In this document: piece by piece, positions 37,285-62,392 of the stretch | Layout: the number at the start of each line of letters is the position of its first letter | Position numbering within the stretch: the first letter of the stretch is position 1 | Source of the DNA: Neisseriaceae bacterium PsAf | Lineage (GTDB): Bacteria; Pseudomonadota; Gammaproteobacteria; Burkholderiales; Neisseriaceae | Assembly: GCA_017114885.1 (NCBI GenBank) | Contig: WNLJ01000010.1 | Location: 1 to 64,000 of the forward strand | Reading direction: 5' to 3' | DNA: 64,000 nt | The notes under the pieces: generated by a model | Told to the model about the DNA's origin: nothing | Databases searched by the model: none | What the model saw: the letters and a program-made list of their open reading frames with translations, nothing else | Program-made: the position numbers and the translations under genes

Positions 37285-37906
37285 ATTATTAAACTATCTG
37301 AAAGAATTAGACTTAGAACCTTTGTGGCTGCGTAAAGGCAACAATATATCCCCTATTATTACGCCAAAGAATCAAAAGGAATTAAAACCTAAAACTATCA
37401 AAAAAAGCAGCACACCCAATAGTCAATTCATAGTCCAAGAAAAGAGTTCAGATAATAGCATTCCACATACATTAACAGAAACCAACTCAACGGAAAGTAT
37501 TAATGAGTTAGAAGTCAATACTAGAGCTCAATTTATACTAGCAGATAAAGATGGAGATTTTATGCTAATTGGCTTTATGGCACCTAGCCTAAATCAAATA
37601 CAAAATCCCCTTAAAGAAAGTACCTATTCAAGATTATTGAATCAACTATTCAAACAGCTAAATTTAACCTTTCCTGATGACTATTTAATTAAAAAACAAG
37701 AATTAAATCAATATATCAGTAAGTATAAAATACAAGCTATATTATTATTTAGTAGAGAATTTAACGCTACTCAACTCTTAACTGAATTATCACAAAAAAA
37801 TGCTCCAATAAAAATATTAGAGCATCCAAACAATCTTATCCGCAACCCATTACTCAAAAAAGAATTATGGCTGCAACTCCATCAATTTTTTAAAAATCTA
37901 AACTAG
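37271..37906 (+). CDS. UDG-fold-like or DNA polymerase III psi-like protein, no catalytic cysteines
   Basis: A 211-residue protein overlapping rimI by 14 bases. In Betaproteobacteria a family 4 uracil-DNA glycosylase often follows rimI, while Gammaproteobacteria have holD (psi subunit) before it. The C-terminal LEHPNNLIRNPLLKKELWLQL resembles the UDG motif HPxxLLRxPxxKxxAW and also the end of HolD. DFMLIGFMAPSLNQIQNPL (near residue 96) aligns with the UDG GEAPG segment but lacks its key residues. The protein contains no cysteine at all, so the family 4 [4Fe-4S] cluster is impossible. A low-complexity linker (residues 35-80) joins an N-terminal helix RLLNYLKELDLEPLWLRKG. I infer a non-enzymatic derivative, perhaps a psi analogue. 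Confidence 0.55.
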   Translation: MLNPRLLNYLKELDLEPLWLRKGNNISPIITPKNQKELKPKTIKKSSTPNSQFIVQEKSSDNSIPHTLTETNSTESINELEVNTRAQFILADKDGDFMLIGFMAPSLNQIQNPLKESTYSRLLNQLFKQLNLTFPDDYLIKKQELNQYISKYKIQAILLFSREFNATQLLTELSQKNAPIKILEHPNNLIRNPLLKKELWLQLHQFFKNLN

Positions 37907-39734
37907 TATTTCCCTTTTTTCGCTTAATATTGTCATATAAATAGGAAAGAATAGCTATTTCATTCTTTTTCGCAATCATATCTCTAGATTTTTCAAAAGA
38001 AAGTTTGATTTTTTCCTGACTAAAAGGATAGTCTAAGGTTTCTGAATTTACTTTTACAATAGTAGGTTGAGAGCGTTTATCTAGCAAGTAATATCCAGGT
38101 TGTCCATTTTTAGACTTGGTGGATAAAAAGTTGATGTATTCGTCTTGAGACAAATTGGCCTTAGCTTCTTCAACTGACATAACCAACGGATTAGTCCAAT
38201 TCAATAATACTGTTTCTCCCGACTTTAACTGATTAAATTTTCTATTGGCATCAGCCAAAGCAAGCTCTCCTGCCTTCATCAAAATATAATCATTGGCTAC
38301 TTGTTGTTTTACTTCGTTAAAATCACGCAATTTTGCAGGACTATCCTTAGTCACTCTTACCACCCAATAGCTTTCGCCTACATTAATAACTTCAGAATTA
38401 GATTTATCAGAAATACTCATAGGATCAAACAAAGTTTCGATCACTTCAACAGGCAAACCATCTAAAAGTGCTTGCTGTTTCGTTACCCATTCACCACTAG
38501 ATTGAACAATATCAGAACCTAATTCTTTTTGAGATACTTTATGCAAATCTTTGCTTTCATTAAAGGCAGCTTCTGATAATTCATCTCTTAATGTGATTAA
38601 ATTTTCTTTCGCTTGATTGTATTTTAGAACATATTCTATTCCCGCTCTATCTTGGTTATAAGAATGCCAATCCATCGCCGCATCAACTTTAATGATATGG
38701 TAACCATCTTCTGTTTCTACTATTTGATTATATATTTGACCAGTACCTAGGCCAAAGGCAGCATTTTCAATTGCTTCATAATATTGTCCATTTTTTTCAA
38801 TCAGACCTAAAGAACCTCCAAATTGAGCTGTAGAGGCGTCTTGTGAATATTTCTGAGCATATTCAGAAAATTTTTCAGGTTCTTGTTTTACTTTACTTAA
38901 AATTACTTCCGCCTGTTTTCTTAAGTTTAATTTCACATCTTCATTTGGTGCTTGACCCTGAGGGAACATCAACACAACATGTGATACCATCCGTTTAGGA
39001 TTATTTTCTTTATTACTCTCGTAATAAGCTTGTATTTTTTCTTCAGGGATTTTAACTTGCTGAATCATCCAATCAGGTGTTAAATGCAAATAGTCAAATT
39101 GGATCGATTGATCTTGCTTATAAGCTTCTTTGTGTTCTTCATAAAATGACTTTAATTCATTATCATTATACTGCACTTGATCTTTATAGTTAGCAATAGG
39201 GAAACTAACACTTTGAATTTCTTTGCGTGTTTCATAGACCGCTAAGTATTGAAGTAACTGATAATCAGAAACAATATGATTATTATTTAAATAATAGGTC
39301 ATATACGTAAATATCAAATTCTTCTTCATTTCATCTTCAAATAAAGCATCAGAACGATAGGTGTTGTTTATGAAGCTTCTATATCTATCTACATCAAAAT
39401 TACCATTGAAGTCCTTAAAAGCAGGTTCAGATTTAATCATCTGATTAAGTTGATTAGGTGAAATCTCTATGCCAATTTTTTTACCACCCTCAATGAGATA
39501 AGCTCTTTTTTGTAAAAAGATATAAGATTGCTTTATACTTTCTTCATCTTGCATCTGTCTATTTCTTTGCAAGTAGGTCTTAACATCAAAATTGCTAATT
39601 TTAGTATCACCTATTTCTACGAGATATTGAGTCTTAGGCGCACTTAACCCGCCCACACCAAAGTAAACAAAACTAGCCGCAATAACGACTAAAAATATTT
39701 TAACTAAAATACTATTTTTAAAAAAATCAAACAT
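37890..39734 (-). CDS. ppiD: Periplasmic folding chaperone / PPIase PpiD
   Basis: Inner-membrane-anchored periplasmic chaperone that receives proteins emerging from the Sec translocon. A single transmembrane anchor is at about residues 10-32 (ILVKIFLVVIAASFVYFGVGG). A SurA_N-like domain follows with EIGDTKISNFDVKTYLQRNRQ. One parvulin domain starts near residue 245 (RMVSHVVLMFP, then KYSQDASTAQFGGSLGLIEKNG). A C-terminal lobe follows, giving 614 residues. It overlaps the convergent gene at 37271 by 17 bases. With SurA lacking parvulin domains, this is the only periplasmic parvulin in the window. Confidence 0.92.
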   Translation of the reverse strand: MFDFFKNSILVKIFLVVIAASFVYFGVGGLSAPKTQYLVEIGDTKISNFDVKTYLQRNRQMQDEESIKQSYIFLQKRAYLIEGGKKIGIEISPNQLNQMIKSEPAFKDFNGNFDVDRYRSFINNTYRSDALFEDEMKKNLIFTYMTYYLNNNHIVSDYQLLQYLAVYETRKEIQSVSFPIANYKDQVQYNDNELKSFYEEHKEAYKQDQSIQFDYLHLTPDWMIQQVKIPEEKIQAYYESNKENNPKRMVSHVVLMFPQGQAPNEDVKLNLRKQAEVILSKVKQEPEKFSEYAQKYSQDASTAQFGGSLGLIEKNGQYYEAIENAAFGLGTGQIYNQIVETEDGYHIIKVDAAMDWHSYNQDRAGIEYVLKYNQAKENLITLRDELSEAAFNESKDLHKVSQKELGSDIVQSSGEWVTKQQALLDGLPVEVIETLFDPMSISDKSNSEVINVGESYWVVRVTKDSPAKLRDFNEVKQQVANDYILMKAGELALADANRKFNQLKSGETVLLNWTNPLVMSVEEAKANLSQDEYINFLSTKSKNGQPGYYLLDKRSQPTIVKVNSETLDYPFSQEKIKLSFEKSRDMIAKKNEIAILSYLYDNIKRKKGNTSLDF

Positions 39735-56431: not shown

Positions 56432-57400
56432 TCAAATCATTCGACTAGCCATATTAATGGCTTGAATTAAACTTCTAGCATTTACTTTCCCGTTCCCTGC
56501 TAACTCAAGAGCCGTGCCATGATCCACAGAAGTCCTTATGTATGGTAAACCCAATGTGATATTTACCGCTTTCTCAAAGGAGGCATATTTAATAACGGGC
56601 AACCCTTGATCATGGTACATTGTTAAAATGACATCATTATTCTCTATAAGTTCCTTTTGAAATACCGTATCCGCAGGATAGGGACCAGACACTAAAATAT
56701 TTTCATTTTTTAAATACTTTATGGCAGGGATAATAATCTCTAATTCTTCCATCCCAAGATAACCATTTTCTCCGGCATGAGGATTGAGGCCTGTAACCAA
56801 TATTTTCGGAGAAGCTATCTTAAATTTTTTCTTGAGTTCTTGGTTAATGATATGAACAACTTTTATAATTAATTCAGTAGTAATTGCTTTAGGTACTTGG
56901 CTTAAAGGTAAATGTGTAGTCGCCAAGGCGACATTTATTACCCCATCCGATAACATCATAACTACTTGATCAACACCGGCTCTGTTTTGAAAATATTCAG
57001 TATGACCAGTTAAAGAAACACCACTTTTGTTAATAATTCCTTTATGTACAGGACCTGTCACTATTCCCGCATAAGTTCCTTTTTCAACACCCTCTATTGC
57101 TTGGTCTAGAAGTGATAAAACATAGGCTGAGTTTTTAACATTTAATTGACCTGCAATAACTTTTTCTTGAACTGGTATGTGCTTAAAAGTAACATAGGGG
57201 TGCTTTTCATCAAAATATTGATGCAAAAATTCTTCTTGTTTAAGTTCTTTCGCTCTATCTTCCAAAGCCTCTATATCAACTAAAATCTCAATTGGGTAAT
57301 CAAAATTAGCCTCAAGAATACCCAAACAAATATCAAGCCCAATTCCTGCAGGCTCGCCACTTGTAACAGCTAAAGGAATTTGGGCTTGATTTTTTTTCAT
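56432..57400 (-). CDS. pdxA: 4-hydroxythreonine-4-phosphate dehydrogenase
   Basis: NAD-dependent enzyme of the DXP-dependent pyridoxal 5'-phosphate pathway. The opening PLAVTSGEPAGIGLDICL is the PdxA signature. The metal histidines are in SLTGHTEYF and GLNPHAGENGYLG, and in TMYHDQGLPVIKY. The 322-residue length is typical. It follows surA by 12 bases in the conserved lptD-surA-pdxA order. In E. coli ksgA comes next; here mlaF takes that place. Confidence 0.95.
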   Translation of the reverse strand: MKKNQAQIPLAVTSGEPAGIGLDICLGILEANFDYPIEILVDIEALEDRAKELKQEEFLHQYFDEKHPYVTFKHIPVQEKVIAGQLNVKNSAYVLSLLDQAIEGVEKGTYAGIVTGPVHKGIINKSGVSLTGHTEYFQNRAGVDQVVMMLSDGVINVALATTHLPLSQVPKAITTELIIKVVHIINQELKKKFKIASPKILVTGLNPHAGENGYLGMEELEIIIPAIKYLKNENILVSGPYPADTVFQKELIENNDVILTMYHDQGLPVIKYASFEKAVNITLGLPYIRTSVDHGTALELAGNGKVNARSLIQAINMASRMI

Positions 57401-57412
57401 GAAAATAAAATA

Positions 57413-58039
57413 CTAGTATGGTTTTTCTCTATATTCTATATAAGCTCTATTTTTCAAATCTTGTACAATGCTTGATAGAATCTCTTGTTGTTTTGCATTT
57501 TCAATAAAGTTCCTAGCATCTTGTTTATTTTGTTCCGTTGCGGGCATTTTGTTTTGATTTAACAAAGCTTCTATTTCAGCTTCCGTCACTTCAATTTGAC
57601 CTTGAGAAACTTCCTTTGCTAGAGCATCAACCATTAAATTATCTTTAACAGTAGCTCTCAACATTGATTTAGGAACGCCTTCTCTTGCAATTGCTTTATA
57701 AAATTGCTCTGATGTTAGCTTATTAGAAGCAGCTATTTTCTCAACTTCTGCATCAATTTCTTTTTCTGAAATTTTAATCTGCATATTTTCTGCCGCTTGT
57801 TTTAATAATCTTTGCTGAATTAGATTATCGATGGCTACCTGTTTTACATCTATTTTCTTAAGTTCTGATTTTGGAACCTGTGCTCTAATTTGGTTACTGA
57901 TATCGTTAATATCTCTTTGGGTGATAACGTCCTGATTAACAACCACCACGATTTGATCAACCCATTGTACAGGCGCTGCATTCGCGCTCAACAACCCAAA
58001 ACCCAACAGTACAGCACTTAACCACTTTCTTAAACTCAT
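57413..58039 (-). CDS. surA: SurA-type periplasmic chaperone lacking both parvulin domains
   Basis: Outer-membrane-protein chaperone by family and position (lptD-surA-pdxA). The signal peptide ends GLLSANAAPV. The SurA N-domain is well conserved: VDQIVVVVNQDVITQRDINDISNQIRAQVP, then IDNLIQQRLLKQAAENMQIKISEKEIDAEVEKIA. After EVTEAEIEALLNQNKMPATEQ the sequence passes straight to the C-terminal helix and strand NFIENAKQQEILSSIVQDLKNRAYIEYR, which in full-length SurA follows two parvulin domains. At 208 residues it is less than half the usual 430. The frame is intact, so this looks like a clean domain loss. The start ATG is five bases inside the lptD end; the AGAGG ribosome-binding site is about 12 bases away. 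Confidence 0.88.
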   Translation of the reverse strand: MSLRKWLSAVLLGFGLLSANAAPVQWVDQIVVVVNQDVITQRDINDISNQIRAQVPKSELKKIDVKQVAIDNLIQQRLLKQAAENMQIKISEKEIDAEVEKIAASNKLTSEQFYKAIAREGVPKSMLRATVKDNLMVDALAKEVSQGQIEVTEAEIEALLNQNKMPATEQNKQDARNFIENAKQQEILSSIVQDLKNRAYIEYREKPY

Positions 58040-58043
58040 ATTA

Positions 58044-60428
58044 TTATTTAACCTCTCTTTTAGGACGATAACCTGGTATAGAGCGATACAGTTCATCAAA
58101 TGGATTCACTCCCAAACCGCCTAAACCTCTCAAATTCAACTGAAAAAATACCGCATTTTTTCGCTTATCATATTCTGTCACATATGTTTGAAATACTGTG
58201 TTTACTCCCCAACATTGACATTCACTAATGTACTCGATTCCTGCCAATGCCTCCAATAATTTTTTATCAGACAAAGAATAATTATACCTACCTACAATCG
58301 AATACCTATCAGCAATTGGCCACTGAAATAAAAAATCAACTTGCTCAAACTTCTCGTCACTTCGATTAATCCAAGGACTATTTTTGTCGTATTTATAACG
58401 CAAATTCACCAATTTACCAAATTCTGGGTTGTATCTTAACCCTACCATATAACGATTATCCGTTTTACGATTACCATTAAAATACAAATCCGCTTGCAAG
58501 GAGATTTTATCAGTAATTTGCCCTTGAGCAAACAATAATGTATCAGAATTATTCTTTCTGTCTTTATCTACCACCTCATCATCTAAACTCACATTATCTT
58601 TTCTAAAATAGATTCGTTGCCCTATTCCTGCTCTAAACAACTCAACCCCATTATGTTGACTGTAAAACCTTGTCATTAAACTATAAGACAAATTATTTGC
58701 AGAATTCACTCTATCATAGCCTGTAAATCTGTTTTCTCTAAACAAGCTAGAAAAAGTTGTATCTACCTCTTCACTATCAAAGTTAGGCAAATCATTTTGT
58801 TCTTTTCTTGGGATATAGGTATAAAAAAGCCTAGGTTCAAGGGCTTGCACAAAATTACTTCCTTTAAACGTCCACGGTCTTTCAAAAATTAAACCTGTAT
58901 CCATACTAAAGATAGGCAATACCCTCGAAAAGTTCCTTTTAGATAAATTAATTCTGGTTCCATCTTCATCTGCTCGCCAATAATTATCTAATTGATAATA
59001 AGTAGCATGCAATCCAAATCTAGGTCTGAAGAATCCCCATTCATTAGAAAAATCCCATGTTACCCGAGGATAAAATAAACTTCTCACTCCCGTTTGCTTG
59101 GTACGATGATCAAAGTTACTCACTTGAGTCAACACATCTACTTCTGCTGCATTTCCTAGTAATCGAGACCATCTTAAAGTCAATTGAGGTTCTAGACGAT
59201 ACGGTTCATCAATAGTTCCACCAGAGTTTTGCAATGTTTGATAATTTTGTACCGTTAAAAATGCAGAAAATGGCCCCCCAAAAAATTGATCATTGTACGA
59301 TAACCATAATTGTCGATTTAAATTATTATTTTCTGCAGATGCAGTTCTACTGCCAAAATCTTTAAAATAATAATTATCAGATACTTGGTTATAATCAATT
59401 CCTAACGATATTTTTGGCGTCAAATTTTGAAAATGCTGAAAACTAACTGCGTAACGATTGCTTTTATCCAAATCTTTTTTGGCAACTCTATCACTAGGCA
59501 GAAAACTTGCTGAAATTTTACCCAAGAAATTAAGAGATAAATACCTAAATTCGCCATCAACACCCATCCCCCTTTTCGTATATAGATGAGGTGTTATGGT
59601 CATATCATAATTGGGCGCTAGGTTAAAATAATAGGGCAAACCAAGTTCTAAGCCATTTCCAGACTTGATTCCTGCAATAGGACTTAAAAAACCACTCTTG
59701 CGATTACCATTTAACGGAAAATCAAACCATGGAACAGTAACCAAAGGTACCCCTTTAAAAACAAATTTAGTCTTTTTCGCAACCCCTATATTCCGATCAT
59801 AGTCTACATTAATTTCTTTTGCCTCTATATACCAACTATCATCCCCAGGATTACAAGTATTAACGCGTGCATTTTGTAAGCGATAGAAATTTGTTTGTAG
59901 AATTTCTAATTTTTTCCCTTCTCCTTGCAGTGGAATTTTGTTTCCTTGGCTACTGAACTTAAAGTCATGCATATTGCCTAGTTTGGTGTTTAAATCATAC
60001 TCCAAACTTCGTCCACTCAAAATATTACTACTGTCTTTTAATTTAAAAGGATCTGAAGTAGAAAGTCTATTATTTTTATACAGTACTTTATTGGCGTTTA
60101 AAACTTGCTCTTCATGTTCAACAATAACATTACCCTCAACCAGAGCCTCTTCTGAGCCTTTTCCTTCAACTTTTTTGTCAAAAGTTAAACGCACCCCTCC
60201 ATTATCAGGCACTGGTTCTTGACTGGTTTCAATAGGTTCAATAGGCTCAAACTTCCCACTGGTAGAGGAACAAGTATTTTTGATTAGCAACTCATCTTTT
60301 GTGACAACCTCTTTACTAGAGTTCTTCTTATCAGGAGCGTCACTTAAAGAATCTGCCAAACCAATATTAAAGCATAAACCAATTTGAGCTAATGATAACT
60401 GCAACACAATCTTTTTTATTCGAAACAA
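58044..60428 (-). CDS. lptD: LPS assembly outer-membrane protein LptD
   Basis: Beta-barrel that inserts lipopolysaccharide into the outer leaflet with LptE. A signal peptide occupies residues 1-25 (IVLQLSLAQIGLCFNIGLAD). The N-terminal OstA jellyroll (about 75-205) contains VEGNVIVEHEEQVLNANKVLYKNN. The barrel follows with VPWFDFPLNGNRKSGFLSPIAGIKSGNGLELGLPYYFNLAPNYDMTITPHL, the best LptD signature. Cysteines for the inter-domain disulfides are visible near the N-terminus (NTCSS) and in EYISECQCWGVNT. The start is a TTG at 60428 with AAGGG seven bases upstream. The 794-residue length is normal. It is divergent from amgK. Confidence 0.95.
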   Translation of the reverse strand: MFRIKKIVLQLSLAQIGLCFNIGLADSLSDAPDKKNSSKEVVTKDELLIKNTCSSTSGKFEPIEPIETSQEPVPDNGGVRLTFDKKVEGKGSEEALVEGNVIVEHEEQVLNANKVLYKNNRLSTSDPFKLKDSSNILSGRSLEYDLNTKLGNMHDFKFSSQGNKIPLQGEGKKLEILQTNFYRLQNARVNTCNPGDDSWYIEAKEINVDYDRNIGVAKKTKFVFKGVPLVTVPWFDFPLNGNRKSGFLSPIAGIKSGNGLELGLPYYFNLAPNYDMTITPHLYTKRGMGVDGEFRYLSLNFLGKISASFLPSDRVAKKDLDKSNRYAVSFQHFQNLTPKISLGIDYNQVSDNYYFKDFGSRTASAENNNLNRQLWLSYNDQFFGGPFSAFLTVQNYQTLQNSGGTIDEPYRLEPQLTLRWSRLLGNAAEVDVLTQVSNFDHRTKQTGVRSLFYPRVTWDFSNEWGFFRPRFGLHATYYQLDNYWRADEDGTRINLSKRNFSRVLPIFSMDTGLIFERPWTFKGSNFVQALEPRLFYTYIPRKEQNDLPNFDSEEVDTTFSSLFRENRFTGYDRVNSANNLSYSLMTRFYSQHNGVELFRAGIGQRIYFRKDNVSLDDEVVDKDRKNNSDTLLFAQGQITDKISLQADLYFNGNRKTDNRYMVGLRYNPEFGKLVNLRYKYDKNSPWINRSDEKFEQVDFLFQWPIADRYSIVGRYNYSLSDKKLLEALAGIEYISECQCWGVNTVFQTYVTEYDKRKNAVFFQLNLRGLGGLGVNPFDELYRSIPGYRPKREVK

Positions 60429-61537: not shown

Positions 61538-62392
61538 TTGTTTACAAGTTGTCAAAAAACGATTCCCTTCGACGAGAAAGCACCACCACCTAAGATTGCT
61601 TTAGCCCTTGGTGGCGGTGGGTTTAAGGGTTTCGCACACATTGGTGTTCTAAAAGTCCTAGAAGAAAATCAAATTCCAATTGATATAATAACAGGTACTA
61701 GTGCAGGTTCTGTAGTCGGTAGTCTTTATGCCTCAGGCATGTCGATTGATGAACTTGAAAATCAAGCTAAAAAATTTTCGCCCTTGAAAATTATCGATTT
61801 ATCTCTCTCTGGCAATGGTGGCTATATTAAAGGAGAAAAAATACAACGCTTAATTAATCAAGCTGTTCACTTTAAATCGATAGAAGAATTCCCCTACTCA
61901 TTTGCAGCCGTTGCAACTGAAAAAAGTACCGATCACGCTGTTATTTTTAAGCAAGGTAATCCAGGACTCGTTGTTCGGGCTTCTTCTAGTATTCCCTTTA
62001 TTTTTCAACCCACCTTAATTGATGGGAAGTACTATATTGATGGAGGGTTATCCTCTCCTGTTCCTGTCCGAGCTGCTAAAGAATTAGGCGCAGATATTGT
62101 AATTGCCATCGATATTTCTGCTGGCGCTCAAGGTCAAGATAACCAAGTCAACACAATAAATGATATCGAACAAACCTTAGAGATGGTCGATCAAAAAGCA
62201 CTTAATAAAGAACTACAACAGGCGGATATTATTATTCGACCAAAACTTGAAAATATTAGTGTTATTAGTGGTATATTAAACATTGAAGAAGCAATTAAAG
62301 CTGGAGAAAATGCGACAAAAAAAATGCTGCCCACTATTAAACTCCTTTTAAAACAAAAAAATCTCAATTCCCTCGGAGATAAGAATGATTGA
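61538..62392 (+). CDS. Patatin-like phospholipase, signal peptide frameshifted
   Basis: Serine esterase with a Ser-Asp dyad of the RssA/patatin group. The oxyanion motif [15 protein letters not shown] is near residue 25, the nucleophile in GTSAGSVVG near 54 and the aspartate in DGGLSSPVP near 170. The continuous frame can only start at a TTG (61538), beginning [10 protein letters not shown] better gene start is the ATG at 61507, overlapping the amgK stop. Deleting one T from the T5 run at 61527-61531 gives [16 protein letters not shown], a lipoprotein signal with the cysteine in place. So the gene probably encodes an outer- or inner-membrane lipoprotein, broken here by one base, slippage-controlled, or misread. 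It overlaps hemA by eight bases. Confidence 0.85.

Follow-up and report, generated by a model that had tools for sequence, protein, structure and literature searches.

A parvulin-free SurA in the Neisseriaceae bacterium PsAf, probably a minimal chaperone core left by an in-frame deletion

Wild-type SurA of E. coli carries two parvulin (PPIase) domains. The core formed by its N- and C-terminal domains carries most of the in vivo chaperone function, to which domain I adds (PMC2556385; this paper and those below are cited from excerpts), in agreement with what an initial annotation of the DNA described here had stated about the two domains. The E. coli core alone binds BAM as the full-length protein does and complements a ΔsurA strain for its membrane sensitivity, residues 23-28 of SurA dock on POTRA-1 of BamA, and the roles of the parvulin domains are said to "remain more elusive" (PMC11366764). 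Over 99% of SurA homologues, but not all, have at least one parvulin domain: core-only forms make up 73 of 14,244 homologues, Halomonas supplies 49 of the 73, and these few cases are said to be confined for the most part to bacteria from extreme environments (PMC11401910, Nat Commun 2024). The meningococcal (meningitidis) SurA is reported to have no key role, and SurA lacking its PPIase domains fails to stop the aggregation of OmpT (PMC9820271).

Here we describe a core-only SurA from PsAf, which is reported as a Neisseriaceae-related symbiont of the louse Polyplax serrata with a genome of 1,814,374 bp and 33.7% GC (PMC9376444, PMC12175528). The lineage is host-restricted, low in GC and rich in hypothetical genes, and neither SurA nor the outer membrane is mentioned in the account of it (PMC9376444). 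The bacterium that our DNA comes from is most likely this louse symbiont. Its genome comprises 1,814,374 bases in 32 contigs and is rated 100% complete; the window, by which we mean the whole stretch of 64,000 nucleotides that was analysed (contig WNLJ01000010.1, positions 1 to 64,000), lies within a contig of 96 kb. The initial annotation had described a surA gene in lptD-surA-pdxA order with an intact frame, a signal peptide, a complete N-terminal domain and the C-terminal helix and strand, and this description holds for the reading frame, Pfam, alignments and a structural model alike. The gene runs without interruption from an ATG at 58039 to a stop at 57413 on the minus strand (208 codons in the ORF list of the window), between lptD (4-nt gap upstream) and pdxA (12-nt gap downstream), which are on the same strand. 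The features are as follows.

57413-58039, minus strand: surA, core-only, 208 aa plus stop; intact ORF, SurA_N at 61.3 bits, parvulin family absent
57977-58039, minus strand: signal peptide, residues 1-21, cleavage after A-N-A (from the sequence, by eye)
57548-57976, minus strand: stretch starting APVQWVDQI, aligned with the POTRA-1-docking N-terminus of E. coli SurA
57536-57541, minus strand: junction between A167 and T168, where relatives have 105-108 aa with a single parvulin (alignment with relatives, Pfam)
57416-57535, minus strand: C-terminal helix and strand, residues 169-208, ending in YIEYREKPY (alignment, profile, model)
58044-60428, minus strand: lptD, full length, 794 aa (ORF list; PF04453, E 3.1e-96)
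56432-57400, minus strand: pdxA (ORF list; 50-56% identical to the pdxA near surA at 4 of 18 fetched loci)
37890-39734, minus strand: PpiD, single parvulin at 38682-38981 (74.4 bits), named by size and parvulin match

After ANA, the mature protein starts with APVQWVDQIVVVVN. As is usual for surA, the gene adjoins lptD, an adjacency that is frequent across Proteobacteria. Among the 18 fetched loci of relatives (L049-L066), lptD was present in all, while a tblastn search found pdxA near surA in four of the 18 (in none of the six from genus g8).

The Pfam family SurA_N (PF09312) covers residues 27-138 with 61.3 bits against a curated cut-off of 30.8, SurA_N_3 is also matched (52.9 bits), and no parvulin or Rotamase family is found in the 208-aa protein even at E≤1. 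The at least one parvulin (PPIase) domain of a canonical SurA is therefore lacking, and the score against the NCBIfam SurA equivalog PRK10770.1 is 52.7 bits where the cut-off is 394, the window protein alone having been scored. The C-terminal segment that completes the SurA core is present, as judged from the alignments, a profile alignment with E. coli and a model superposed up to residue 427. In Pfam terms this is a SurA_N member without an annotated PPIase domain, and we classify it as a core-only rather than a canonical homologue, because it has no Rotamase match and the parvulins of the genome lie elsewhere.

The initial annotation was right that no parvulin is left in this SurA, but wrong in supposing that two had been lost. 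SurA_N was found in 78 of 83 genomes of the family (70 of 71 good ones), and the best SurA frames in the other 77 genomes all span at least 308 codons, against 230 codons for the frame in the window. In an alignment of 31 loci (the window and 30 of the 77 other SurA-bearing genomes) a single parvulin block is filled in all 30 relatives; each of the four relatives searched with Pfam (4/4) shows SurA_N and a single Rotamase stretch, and PF00639 lies inside the surA frame in 8/8 SurA-bearing relatives among ten genomes tested. Since SurA of this family carries one parvulin, one domain and not two was lost in the PsAf lineage. The closest comparison is with genus g8, whose SurA shares with that of PsAf the lptD-surA order, the N-terminal core and the C-terminal tail: YIEYREKPY in the window matches Y/F-I-D/S-Y/F-RKKPY, with EKPY here and KKPY there. 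Where four g8 members (loci L009, L020, L024 and L025) retain 105-108 aa with the parvulin and its linkers, however, PsAf has an in-frame gap, and MPA is joined directly to TEQ. The other SurA frames of the order, searched in 399 genomes, are mostly 430-540 codons long among the best 150 matches, the length expected for two parvulins. No further core-only SurA was seen among these 150 matches; two short frames of 194 and 198 aa sit at contig ends and were set aside. A contig scan with PdxA returned six distant loci and no near relative.

Within PsAf, SurA_N gives one match in the whole 1.81-Mb genome, at 57413-58039, and PF00639 gives two, in PpiD in the window and in a 292-aa PrsA-like ORF on another contig. 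There is thus no spare SurA, and the lost parvulin is not found elsewhere. A second full-length surA, one of the two findings that would have spoken against the initial annotation, is ruled out by the single SurA_N match, and so is relocation of the parvulin, as PpiD and the PrsA-like protein both have counterparts in relatives. The single parvulin that had been assigned to PpiD is confirmed at 38682-38981. PpiD is a membrane-anchored protein. Foldases of the PpiD and PrsA types, both of which occur in PsAf, have a SurA-like region that is structurally related (PrsA and PpiD chains are among the structure matches), but unlike the window SurA they have kept their parvulin.

AlphaFold2, run on the single sequence, gave a best model with a pLDDT of 72.4 and a pTM of 0.51, the other four models reaching 46-55. 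In this model strands are predicted only at residues 30-34, 37-39 and 201-205, and the run of three consecutive strands that a PPIase domain would have is absent. Foldseek returned 13 matches at E≤0.001, of which 12 are SurA and one is the leptospiral LIC12922; the top ones are SurA chains, the best at 7.9e-08. By VIA-align, residues 27-205 superpose on residues 25-427 of E. coli SurA (1m5y) with 168 residues aligned, an rmsd of 4.5 and a Z of 14.1, a value in the range (near 13-14) that helical folds can also give. Because the superposition spans the junction, the N and C parts are predicted to fold together across it, and the suggested comparison with the E. coli N+C core thus came out in favour of a shared core fold in the model, at about 20% sequence identity in the structural alignments. 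A seven-sequence profile likewise aligns the tail of the window protein with the E. coli C-terminus. In domain composition, the protein equals the engineered E. coli N+C construct, with the difference that its own state is natural.

We consider it probable, with a chance of roughly two in three, that this is the orthologous surA, that its single parvulin was removed by an in-frame deletion, and that what remains is a working minimal N+C core in a genome undergoing reduction. A deletion of about 320 bp would have taken out the sole parvulin and with it the only enzyme domain of SurA. The core-only protein would still be exported, hold unfolded outer-membrane proteins (OMPs) in the groove of the core, dock through its N-terminal strand on POTRA-1 of BamA, and pass its clients to BAM without an isomerase module, while PpiD and the PrsA-like protein would retain parvulin domains in the envelope. 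We infer a holdase that delivers OMPs to BAM because the window protein keeps a matching N-terminus and core. The initial annotation had suggested a natural minimal chaperone. This is favoured by the intact frame, a gap that coincides with the domain, the unaccelerated core, the place in the operon and the single SurA. What does not survive is the idea that a parvulin-free SurA would be something new: 73 such homologues are in print (PMC11401910, in the part consulted), so the kind is already known, and the PsAf protein adds an independent instance from what is probably an insect symbiont. It resembles the 73 in having a SurA_N core and zero parvulins, and differs from them, as they are described there, in its probable insect host, its one-parvulin ancestor, its status as sole surA and the absence of Skp. 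The literature that we searched gave no account of the SurA of this symbiont, nor any link between core-only SurA, genome reduction and a missing Skp. As a small natural core and a rare natural counterpart of a form made artificially in the laboratory, it forms with its one-parvulin relatives a comparative series on the role of the parvulin domain.

The most serious alternative, which we regard as unlikely while giving it some weight, is that the deletion marks one stage in the reduction of the genome and that the expressed remnant is of little use and on its way to being lost, as seems to have happened in the congener G001. The host-restricted, low-GC lineage with its many hypothetical genes (excerpts of PMC9376444) would fit such decay, as would the missing key role of SurA in meningococci (excerpts of PMC9820271) and the congener, which has neither a SurA_N match nor LptD; the meningococcal and OmpT results and the congener, which seems to manage without SurA, also weigh against a working core. 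Decay sits less well with a frame, signal peptide, SurA_N domain and C-terminal tail that are all intact. On the LptD topology (the window and 13 relatives, from 18 fetched loci), the terminal branch of PsAf measures 0.687 for SurA and 0.703 for LptD, a ratio of 0.98 that lies within the 0.31-2.01 of the 13 relatives, for 172 core columns and with LptD, which may itself be relaxed, as the sole yardstick. Both the SurA and the LptD trees put the window beside g8. The GC content at third positions is 0.262 and 0.222 in the two parts of surA, resembling that of its neighbours pdxA (0.254) and lptD (0.260). Branch ratio and third-position GC speak against free decay of the core at the level of the sequence, which is not the same as proof of activity.

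Skp, another soluble chaperone of OMPs, is missing as well. PF03938 had no match in PsAf, in the congener G001 or in the g8 member G063, and was found in the other seven of ten genomes tested; all ten have BamA, and PsAf also keeps LptD. In PsAf, lpxD follows bamA after 113 bp (L047:4720-4832), in the congener after 112 bp (L048:5220-5331), and in both skp is missing in between. As G063 belongs to g8, skp may have been lost more than once. The ORF list for G063 (L042) likewise has no skp beside bamA, downstream of which lies a thymidylate kinase-like ORF. With SurA and Skp as the chaperones searched for, the core-only SurA is possibly the last soluble OMP chaperone of the classical type in PsAf, in a lineage that would be stepping from a one-parvulin SurA to the core and on to none. 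More tentatively, and with somewhat less than an even chance of being right, we propose that a diderm symbiont with BamA and LptD but without Skp uses the SurA core, free of parvulin, as the sole soluble chaperone of its OMPs, in a naturally evolved minimal system midway in a series of two parvulins, one, none and no SurA. If true, this midway state shows which parts of SurA are the last to go. An independent natural loss of the parvulin in a Skp-less genome suggests that, within a protected host niche, the core can be enough.

It is improbable that the core serves mainly another role, for instance as a holdase dedicated to LptD or acting generally in the periplasm, rather than as a general OMP chaperone. 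Such a role could explain why lptD and surA, adjacent in PsAf, are both missing from one and the same set of 5 genomes among the 83 of the family. Four of the five (G040, G052, G060 and G073), however, are only 58-85% complete, the fifth, G001, seems to lack a whole 12-kb block at once, and lptD-surA adjacency is common in Proteobacteria in any case. Removal of the parvulin codons by an assembly or sequencing error is very improbable even in a draft of 32 contigs, as the gap is in frame and on domain borders, the window contains no ambiguous bases, no strong or otherwise notable repeat spans the junction, surA lies in the interior of its 96-kb contig, and the only parvulin matches of the genome are PpiD and the PrsA-like protein; nothing points to the misassembly that the initial annotation had named as its other possible refutation.

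Lastly, we compared PsAf with the congener G001, a single contig of 1,607,491 bases rated 100% complete. It had no match for SurA_N, LptD, Skp or a second Omp85 (TamA-like) protein (L048, L068), and has kept BamA. The best match of P0001 there (E 0.12) was rejected as a SurA, being a thermonuclease-like ORF by eye. POTRA-1 of BamA is 90.0% identical between PsAf and the congener, and no footprint of SurA loss was seen on it. The congener retains lpxD-, fabZ- and lpxA-like ORFs (named by eye) and LptD is unmatched, so lipid A genes seem to outlast the LPS export gate in this genome. A 12-kb DNA query around surA gave only a 130-bp match in G001 (40 of 89 candidates scored), within a patatin-like ORF by eye, and the whole block therefore seems to be missing; its loss in the congener is likely. 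The window has a patatin-like ORF of its own at 61538-62392 (by eye), for which the congener gives a single DNA match, to a related ORF that lies in a different gene neighbourhood.
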